Shown here: positions 17,837 through 19,525 of the stretch, piece by piece
Position numbering within the stretch: the stretch's first letter is position 1
Layout of the letters: the number at the start of each line of letters is the position of its first letter
DNA from: a virus
Length of the DNA stretch: 24,546 nt
Strand: one strand, 5' to 3'
IMG/VR virus record: IMGVR_UViG_3300037427_000047
Location: 1 to 24,546 of that record
The notes under the pieces: model-generated
What the model saw: only the letters and a program-made list of their open reading frames with translations
Database searches by the model: none
Told to the model about the DNA's origin: nothing
Made by a program: the position numbers and the translations under genes

Positions 17837-17850
17837 TGAATTCTCCTAAT

Positions 17851-17879
17851 TAAAAGGACGGCCCCCGAAGGAGCCGCCC
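17851..17879 (-). terminator. Rho-independent terminator with UUCG loop after the head genes
   Basis: On the minus strand GGGCGGCTCC pairs over ten positions (two G.U) with GGGGCCGTCC around a TTCG tetraloop, followed by TTTTA. The stem lies 8 nt after the stop of the 154-aa gene (17887) and upstream of the tail tubular A ribosome binding site. In T7 the main late terminator (Tphi) also sits between the capsid region and gene 11, so the position is conserved in function: it keeps capsid mRNA in excess of tail mRNA. Confidence 0.88.
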
Positions 17880-17886
17880 AAGATCT

Positions 17887-18351
17887 TTAATCTACAACGT
17901 AGAGCATTTGCAGTTCGACAGTTCCAGTGCCAGCTGCTCCACCCATTGTCACACTTACTGTGTAACCATCACCATCAGCATCTATTACGGTGTTTCTGCC
18001 CAATGCAGAAGTAGCCGCAACCGCCACTGTTGTGATTGAAGTAGAAGCAGCAGCAGCGAAAAATTCGTCTGCATCAAGTGCAACTGTTGTACCAGCAGCA
18101 TTCTTATATGCCGCATGACCTACCGCCAAAGTAGTAGATGAACCCATCGCGTCATGTGTCAAAGTACCTTCAAGAACTCTCGCTCCGTTTGGTAAAGTGA
18201 ACATATTGATGACATCACCACTTGAAAGAGAGGATGCTTCGTATAGCGCGTATGCAATACGAACCCTGCCACCCTTTTCGTTTGGCTTGATCTTTTCAGT
18301 AGGATCATTCTGGTTATGCTTAGTCTGTTGGACTGAGTAAACTGTAGCCAT
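17887..18351 (-). CDS. Putative capsid decoration / head fibre protein, 154 aa
   Basis: The protein starts MATVYSVQQTKHNQNDPTEK and continues with KGGRVRIAYALYEASSLSSG, then a Thr/Ala/Val-rich beta-strand region (VLEGTLTHDAMGSSTTLAVG; DADEFFAAAASTSITTVAVA) ending VELQMLYVVD. There is no signal or membrane segment. Such small beta proteins encoded directly after the major capsid gene in marine T7-like phages are usually virion components, but I know no defined function, so decoration or head fibre is an inference from position. A strong Shine-Dalgarno (TAGGAGG) precedes the ATG at 18351, only 15 nt after the capsid stop, and the strong terminator follows, which predicts high expression together with the capsid protein. 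Confidence 0.65.
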   Translation of the reverse strand: MATVYSVQQTKHNQNDPTEKIKPNEKGGRVRIAYALYEASSLSSGDVINMFTLPNGARVLEGTLTHDAMGSSTTLAVGHAAYKNAAGTTVALDADEFFAAAASTSITTVAVAATSALGRNTVIDADGDGYTVSVTMGGAAGTGTVELQMLYVVD

Positions 18352-18366
18352 TTTTTAATCCTCCTA

Positions 18367-18628
18367 CTATTCGTTGCAAGCAATTTGAACTACTTTAGAT
18401 TCCTCTAATCGGCTTGAGCCGAAGGAGGCGCAGTAGTACACTTGCGTTGCCATTGATTTATCAGGTCGCACATCAATGCTGGCCGTTGGTTCCTTACCCA
18501 TTGCCAAAACCATCCCATCGTCAGCCCAAGCATAGCACAGTCTTGATGTGCCATCGTCAGTTAAACGATTTGATGTTATGAACTTAAAACCGACAAATGT
18601 GTCGATATCACCTTGTACGAGTGCCTTT
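18367..18628 (-). CDS. Major capsid protein, exon 2 (C-terminal 86 residues)
   Basis: This segment has no start codon of its own. Read in the frame set by splicing, it begins with the last base of the split Val codon, then KALVQGDIDTFVGFKFITSN, then RLTDDGTSRLCYAWADDGMV, LAMGKEPTASIDVRPDKSM, and ends ESKVVQIACNE before TAG at 18367-18369. These are C-terminal hallmarks of T7-like capsid proteins (alv.GeidtF.GF.Fi.teRL, a......gv.la......idvrpdk..~~qvy....~g..r.....vv.i.c). The stretch is therefore real coding sequence orphaned by the intron, not spacer or a decayed gene. The decoration gene starts 15 nt after its stop. Confidence 0.9.
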
Positions 18629-18830
18629 CATACCAACTACGGTTTTCACCGCCTCTGTCGAGTTTGTGGTCTGGACTTTCTCTTTACCCTCATCTGAATG
18701 TTAGGGTATCAGCCGTCAAGTCTCTACACCTTCCTATTTCTAGGCTTGGCTCGGGATTAGCATTTTAAAGCCTTCCCCGAATTTGACTGAGTTTCATCTA
18801 AGTGTTTCCACCTAGATAGGCAAAGTATTT
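18629..18830 (-). ncRNA. ORF-less group I self-splicing intron (IC3-like), 202 nt
   Basis: Counting intron bases from 18830 downward, the group I elements are all visible. P1: exon GGU with intron GCC (10-12), giving a U.G pair at the splice site, extended by AAA:UUU. P2: 14-22 with 27-35, closed by GAAA. P3: UCAG-UC (41-46) with GA-cgg-CUGA (114-122). P4: UCGGG (51-55) with CCCGA (76-80). P6: GCC:GGU with P6a CCUA-GAAA-UAGG (87-98). P7: GaGACUU (107-113, bulged A) with AAGUCC (153-158). P8: ACCCU:AGGGU. P9 region: includes CGGU-GAAA-ACCG (180-191). P10: exon-2 AAAG with CUUU (6-9). The last base is G. Core strings CAAAUUCGG, CCGAGCCAAGC and GAAGGUGUAGAGACU match the Azoarcus tRNA-Ile intron as I remember it (205 nt). 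There is no room for a homing endonuclease. Confidence 0.95.
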
Positions 18831-19426
18831 ACCGAGTTATAATCCGCACTTGTAACAGTTGTGATGTTAAGTAGATCTTCCATCTGCTCTGGTGAAACTA
18901 CGATATATCGCTTGATTGATGGATCTACATTGCCCTCATCCAGGATCTTTTTGGCACTAACCAATTTTGCAACGGTTAGACCTCCAGAACCATGCGCGAT
19001 CTTCTGCGCTGCTGGAAGAGCAGTTGATGTAGAACCAGAACTTCCAGTTTTAGCTGAACCACCCATAGCTGCTATGATGACATCATCCATCTTTCGCCCT
19101 ATAGCAGCAGCTGCGGCTTTCGCATATGTGCTGGTGGGGTCAATAAGCATTCGAATTTTATCTTCCGAATCAATGAGATCTGCGTACTCGTAATCGGATA
19201 ATGTTACCATTCTTCTGGAATGTGGTGTATCCATTAGCGGAGTATCGCTGTTTCTTGTGGTTTTCTCCTCTGCGGCGGCACTGCCTACCTGCTCGAAGAA
19301 TGCTTTGTCACCATTAACAGTTTCAACATTCACCGCATTTCTCAAAAGACTTCCCATCTGTTGAGAGAGTAGCTGAACATTGGAACTATACTGGTTCACA
19401 AAACTTGTTGTGATTTGCGTACTAAT
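18831..19426 (-). CDS. Major capsid protein, exon 1 (N-terminal 199 residues)
   Basis: Exon 1 encodes (M)STQITTSFVNQYSSNVQLLS, QQMGSLLRNAVNVETVNGDK, DTPHSRRMVTLSDYEYADLI (around 80-100) and ends MEDLLNITTVTSADYNSV. This is the T7-like capsid pattern (MSt.ItqaFV.qf..nv..l.qq.gS.Lr..v........f.q.g...........t...d..h.rr.v...dy.~a~.id). Joined to exon 2 it gives 285 residues. Without splicing, translation runs five codons into the intron (NTLPI) and stops at 18812, a 204-residue truncated product. The start is chosen as ATT at 19426: it lies 7 nt behind a strong TAAGGAG and gives the family N-terminus exactly, whereas the first conventional start (GTG at 19399) has no Shine-Dalgarno and would remove nine conserved residues. 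Confidence 0.92.
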
Positions 19427-19525
19427 AGCACTTCTCCTTATTTAAAAATTTAAGTTAATGTTTGATGGATTGTCCCTAGAAAGGGGTCACGATGATAAAA
19501 AAGTCGTAAGGCCGTAAAGGTTATC
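19427..19525 (-). promoter_or_regulatory. Capsid gene leader: ribosome binding site and possible promoter
   Basis: This 99-nt spacer between scaffold and capsid genes ends in TAAGGAG, 7 nt before the ATT start. A possible sigma70 promoter is TTTACG (19518-19513), 15 nt, TATCAT (19497-19492). Alternatively CCCCTTTCTAGGGACA (minus strand, down to 19471) recalls the TATAGGGAGA initiation region of T7-type promoters and can fold as CCCU-UUCU-AGGG. T7 has its strongest promoter at this place. No second copy of the candidate phage motif was found in an intergenic region of the window, so the promoter part is weak; the ribosome binding site is clear. Confidence 0.35.

Follow-up and report, generated by a model that had tools for sequence, protein, structure and literature searches.

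Introns in phage structural genes have several described precedents. The major capsid gene of mycobacteriophage LittleE contains, at a single site, an intron that is about 819 bp long and includes a LAGLIDADG ORF; its splicing in vivo was demonstrated by RT-PCR and N-terminal sequencing, and its assignment to group I was only thought likely (PMC3706429). Lactococcal Tuc2009 is cited in the same paper (PMC3706429). Three introns in the tape-measure gene of ICP1 were shown from RNA to be spliced (PMC10448857), and splicing was seen in RNA in the Jug phages, each of whose genomes carries approximately 18 group I introns (PMC12363816). In ICP1 and Jug, the targets are the tape measure, terL, nrdD, DNA polymerase and other genes, whereas several of the near-complete contigs described below have introns in the capsid gene only. 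Finally, the cyanophage psbA intron and its free-standing endonuclease, as cited in PMC9860041 and PMC10448857, provide the model of collaborative homing for an ORF-less intron that is moved by a separate endonuclease; here, no candidate endonuclease was identified.

The locus considered here lies in a 24,546-nt stretch of viral DNA (IMG/VR record IMGVR_UViG_3300037427_000047, positions 1 to 24,546), referred to in its full length as the window. Judging by sequence comparison, it very probably represents a mobile, self-splicing, IC3-like group I intron that has colonised the capsid gene of the HTVC010P-type marine podoviruses, which are unrelated to LittleE. According to a first-pass annotation of the window, made from the sequence alone, no IC3-type intron is known to have been described in the major capsid gene of a T7-like phage. 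LittleE is a precedent for an intron in a capsid gene, and the introns of the present lineage appear undescribed in the open literature searched. The name T7-like is not supported, as the window capsid is 61-63% identical to those of HTVC010P/HTVC034P and belongs to PHROG 3437, not PHROG 267; the polymerase region is outside the window.

Sister introns are found in the capsid genes of two phages that are T7-like, HTVC120P and KM23-C739. These are 73-85% identical to the window's intron at the DNA level and follow the same U/G rules, but they interrupt PHROG 267 capsids at other insertion sites, and each split gene is annotated as two capsid CDS. A third split gene, in Phage C72C1, is annotated as two major head proteins.

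L002 2327-3501 (MH598807): split capsid gene of the Pelagibacter phage HTVC120P, one intron
L003 2164-3500 (KT997847): split capsid gene of the uncultured phage KM23-C739, two introns
L427 1531-2732 (OQ984150): split capsid gene of Phage C72C1, PHROG 1328, IA-like intron

No description of these three cases was found in the open literature searched, and the multi-site, two-class, lineage-wide pattern of capsid introns appears undescribed there. An additional 77-kb genome, that of Pseudoalteromonas phage pYD6-A (L005 / JF974296), has six matches to the Rfam group I model RF00028, three of them over the cut-off and one at the DNA polymerase gene.

The split capsid gene and its splice junction

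The capsid gene of the window and its surroundings comprise the following features.

18831..19426, minus strand: capsid exon 1, 596 nt, amino acids 1-198 and two bases of codon 199, starting with ATT
18629..18830, minus strand: group I intron, 202 nt, no ORF, IC3-like (tRNA-intron type)
18812..18814, minus strand: in-frame TAG that ends the unspliced ORF, inside the intron
18367..18628, minus strand: capsid exon 2, 262 nt, from the remainder of codon 199 to the stop codon TAG
19434..19439, minus strand: Shine-Dalgarno sequence AAGGAG, 7 nt 5' of the ATT (GAAGGAG in relatives)

The joined exons make 858 nt, or 285 codons and a stop. The sequence agrees in these lengths, in the exon and intron coordinates and in the ORF stop at 18812 with the first-pass annotation, which left out the ATT start. 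This codon (19424-19426) is ATG in 63 relatives, including L045, which starts with ATG although its intron is identical to that of the window; either the ATT is a start codon of a rare kind or the sequence contains an error here. Downstream of the capsid gene, the stretch 17849-17895 (minus strand) scores below threshold with the model of the Listeria sRNA sbrA (28.5 bits versus 45), and has the look of a common intrinsic terminator that follows the gene at 17887-18351.

The two exons belong to a single protein family. Exon 1 alone matches positions 4-201 of the 294 in PHROG 3437 (major head; E 3.9e-67) and exon 2 alone matches positions 201-292 (E 2.6e-22), so that the two matches abut and the profile covers the whole spliced protein. 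A comparison of intron-bearing alleles gives a median dN/dS of 0.081 for exon 2, equal to that of exon 1, and by this measure the region past the stop codon is under purifying selection in the same way as the region before it. The insertion might instead have truncated the gene and left exon 2 as a decaying remnant or as a separate small protein, in keeping with the stop at 18812 in the unspliced ORF and with the annotation of sister cases as two capsid genes in public records. This is highly improbable given the selection on exon 2, which furthermore lacks a capsid-frame start codon close to its 5' end, and given that the inserted sequence is intact as a group I RNA, with covariation, and that the pattern recurs at about 17 sites of an essential gene.

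A single full-length protein could also be obtained from a split gene by ribosome bypass, as in T4 gene 60, or by removal at the protein level, as with an intein. However, an in-frame stop is found in 90 of the 90 introns called by spliced alignment, and the lengths of these inserts fall into all three classes modulo 3, which together exclude an intein, and the group I core, the P1/P10 pairing and the U/G rule are explained by RNA splicing only. Either mechanism is extremely improbable, and the intein, bypass and pseudogene readings are set aside on the basis of the stops, the length classes, the covariation and the dN/dS.

Comparison with relatives fixes the position of the splice junction. 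Exon 1 has 57 relatives in viral contigs. The same intron is found in the window-like contigs L006-L010, L040 and L045, while intron-free relatives include L011 (87% amino acid identity), L060 (93%) and many others at 68-73%. The latter are continuous across the same junction, reading for example AATTCTGTAAAGGCACTTGTACAGGG where the window has AACTCGGT and AAAGGCACTCGTACAAGG, and they place it at NSV/KALVQGDID (here and below, the slash marks the splice site). Sixty-three introns, 47 of which lie at the window's site, were tested with a strict rule (U at the end of exon 1, G at the end of the intron, an in-frame join and the best available protein match); each has a single junction under this rule, with the omega-G at the intron end in all calls. 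Both approaches lead to the splice sites and the in-frame join proposed in the first pass, for which insert-free relatives with a different junction had been named as one kind of counter-evidence; the relatives that lack the insert share the junction. One residue is uncertain at the second intron of L122 (nt 251), where DLYIDD, not DLIDD, results from the strict rule. A 162-nt spliced-alignment call in L061/L062 was judged false; L061, the record tested, is without an Rfam match.

Structure and tRNA kinship of the intron RNA

A covariance search, suggested in the first pass as a check on the intron, matched RF00028 over its full length (model positions 1-253) at 18840-18649, with 84.3 bits (E 1.8e-21) against a curated cut-off of 50 bits. 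The window's record contains no other match to RF00028, and the U.G splice-site pair of the model is aligned to U18831, the previously proposed end of exon 1. The main paired elements are listed below.

18819..18833, minus strand: P1, exon GGU/AAA with the internal guide UUUGCC, U.G at the splice site
18718..18722, minus strand: P7 5' strand GACUU (guanosine-binding helix), pairing with AAGUC, RF00028 placement
18674..18678, minus strand: P7 3' strand AAGUC, pairing with GACUU, RF00028 placement
18625..18628, minus strand: exon 2 AAAG, P10 partner of the guide CUUU, 97.9% paired

Covariation was assessed in 25 distinct aligned introns, all at the window's site, using a model of 61 pairs, in which 97.9% of cells are paired. 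Both-sided changes affect 27 pairs and 174 cells, versus at most 7 pairs and at most 17 cells in controls with slid partners; RNAalifold, on its own model, finds 28 pairs with both-sided changes. Overall, covariation is seen in P1, P2, P3, P5, P6a, P8, P9 and P10. The P1 U.G pair is kept in 25 of 25 introns, two alleles have a compensatory A-U to G-C change in P1, and P10 is 97.9% paired over the 25 alleles, with double changes (U-A, U-G and C-G at the first pair). The P7 strands are fully paired and invariant in all 25, and are therefore neutral as evidence of covariation. Finally, at the synonymous exon position that pairs with the guide, G is present in all 31 intron-bearing genes, compared to 14 of the 92 others (Fisher p 1.4e-18, a value inflated by related sequences, including near-copies). 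The group I elements, and the P1 and P10 pairings in particular, are thus borne out as first described, and on this comparative evidence the insert is a functioning group I RNA with a conserved P3-P9 core and a P7 pseudoknot.

This small RNA almost certainly removes itself from the capsid message, as far as can be judged from sequence. From its anatomy and from established group I chemistry, we infer that the late transcript would fold so that a P7-bound guanosine attacks after U18831, at the P1 U.G pair; the freed exon 1 would then attack after G18629, with P10 holding exon 2 in place, and the spliced message would encode the capsid protein of 285 amino acids.

The intron has only 3 nt between the P7 5' strand and the P3 3' strand, which leaves no room for the P7.1/P7.2 hairpins of group IA. 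The same core is found in bacterial tRNA IC3 introns (tRNA-Arg CCU, tRNA-Leu UAA), which are likewise about 200 nt long with no P7.1/P7.2 and no ORF; the intron of tRNA-Ile in Azoarcus is another IC3 intron of a bacterial tRNA gene. In contrast to these, the window's intron sits in a protein gene, with P1 and P10 matched to capsid codons. The core pattern was detected in 89 viral stretches, of which 43 are in this capsid family, 3 in T7-like capsids and 35 inside tRNA genes (ARAGORN), with 8 undetermined. Of the 73 core matches in bacterial genomes, 67 are in tRNA genes, chiefly those for Arg(CCU) and Leu(UAA), and 0 in a capsid gene; none of the capsid introns was mistaken for a tRNA. The intron tree has 4 changes between tRNA and capsid homes, compared to a mean of 25 in shuffled trees, which indicates few moves between the two. 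Spacing and kinship together fit a tRNA-intron type, IC3-like assignment, in accord with the class originally given.

Intron sites across the capsid gene

The first-pass annotation described a single intron. That intron is real, but the picture is wider, and takes in a hotspot with many sites across the lineage. Spliced alignment of all loci, with RF00028 as an independent check, places introns at about 17 sites of the 858-nt gene.

nt 127, 150, 158, 180, 190, 204, 213, 251 and 272 of the capsid gene: intron sites
nt 318, 455, 596 (the window's), 604, 615, 772, 816 and 833 of the capsid gene: intron sites

Uncertain duplicates of these sites are present in L215 (nt 156) and at two positions in the divergent L260. 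Six loci (L081, L083, L088, L122, L150 and L215) have three introns each, all confirmed by Rfam, and in the near-complete L088 (36.9 kb) and L122 (32.6 kb) group I matches are found in the capsid gene only. At nt 833, the introns of L349 and L126 differ in length (249 and 190 nt) at the same site, and that of L126 matches the tRNA-type core.

A second, IA-like class, with about 40 nt and two hairpins between P7 and P3, occupies many of the remaining sites. These introns (nt 127-213, 455, 772, 816 and others) resemble the group IA introns of Twort and T4-like phages, a class to which the window's own intron does not belong. A scan with the F2 core (L154-L273) provides a sample of this class among the matches listed, with near-copies counted. 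Among those matches, major-head genes predominate: at least 16 are in such genes by direct match, and 62 of 96 further exons are major-head by cluster and PHROG; the head families include PHROG 1328, 1357, 9953, 334, 267, 283 and 10. The remaining homes among the matches listed are DNA polymerase, ribonucleotide reductase, tape measure, sheath and terminase genes, and some exons are hidden by a neighboring endonuclease ORF. ORF-less introns of this class are, among the same matches, strongly over-represented in major-head families that are unrelated in sequence.

The frequency of introns was estimated with an intron-blind scan based on the first 42 capsid residues, which lie upstream of every site. 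Introns were detected in 7 of 69 distinct full genes, with 62 of the 69 lacking them. Some partial capsid loci end at or beside known intron sites (L423 at amino acid 198 and L042 at amino acid 150), which suggests that assemblies break at polymorphic introns and that intron frequency is underestimated.

The recurrence of introns in the same late and abundant protein, to the exclusion of the rest of L088 and L122, and the convergence of two unrelated intron classes on the capsid gene could be taken to mean that the intron is not purely selfish, and is kept for a benefit to the phage, either in the timing of capsid translation or through interference with intron-free competitors. Such a benefit seems distinctly unlikely, as intron-free close relatives are common in the intron-blind sample and the HTVC010P-type isolates among the matches listed are all without the intron. 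Under the favored model, several introns, belonging to two structural classes, would use the capsid gene as a whole as their landing zone.

Probable movement of the intron between capsid genes

Presence and absence of the window's intron were compared on a tree of 123 capsid genes, which has 9 changes of state, at least 8 of them forced by well-supported branches. Near-identical pairs with and without an intron were found (L396/L399, L413/L378, L369/L362 and L365/L377). The first of these differs at nt 190, reading CCGT/TAATC versus CCGCTGATC, a synonymous difference located at the junction itself.

In 12 pairs, the introns are 100% identical in genes with a third-position identity of only 59-87%. 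In the flanks of these pairs, third-position identity drops from 88-93% (up to 30 nt from the junction) to 61-65% at a distance; in intron-free control pairs it stays level at 64%. In two pairs with identical introns, the identical flank runs extend to 62/45 and 133/78 nt; in the pair formed by the window and L152 they are only 5 and 9 nt, and the co-conversion signal is weaker. Older intron-bearing pairs also have a raised identity near the junction (0.44-0.52 versus about 0.33), so the flank effect is in part constraint, not co-conversion. Identical introns in diverged genes, most of them with matching flanks, together with the plus/minus pairs, are indicative of homing.

The intron could nevertheless be real and now immobile, its distribution due to vertical inheritance and patchy loss with no homing. 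No endonuclease has been found, intron and gene divergence are correlated (Spearman 0.52) and intron-bearing genes cluster on the capsid tree, all of which would be compatible with immobility. That reading is judged unlikely, given that an intron that varies freely elsewhere in the lineage is unchanged in genes so diverged, that long flank runs accompany it in two such pairs and that near-identical alleles with and without an intron differ at the junction.

Homing would spread the intron between co-infecting phages by break repair with co-conversion. Because the 202-nt intron encodes no endonuclease, the enzyme would have to come from another part of the genome or from a co-infecting phage. 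Among 24 intron-bearing records, an HNH_3 ORF was found in 4 and an HNH or GIY-YIG ORF in 0; searches for Endonuclease_7 and PDDEXK_5 had no positive control and carry no weight. With none in the intron and none consistently nearby, the homing step is left without its enzyme. In L069, L090, L121 and L148, HNH-like ORFs adjoin non-capsid copies of the intron core, that of L121 being in a tRNA gene, and it is possible that these ORFs encode partner endonucleases. A broader proposal, which is tentative and somewhat doubtful at present, is that the capsid gene is a convergent target of unrelated IC3-like and IA-like introns, driven in trans by a putative capsid-targeting endonuclease system that may serve as a weapon in mixed infections, and that the tRNA-type introns jumped from tRNA genes to capsid genes.

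For marine viruses, the major capsid gene commonly serves as a marker and as an anchor for annotation, and in part of an abundant lineage it consists of two to four coding pieces, which public records give as two capsid genes or as a truncated one. A recurrent tRNA-type intron within a protein gene, showing signs of homing yet lacking an endonuclease, makes the movement of ORF-less introns testable, and the T7-like isolate HTVC120P is a culturable relative. The convergence of two intron classes on a single gene would provide a natural experiment into the reasons for which certain genes attract introns.
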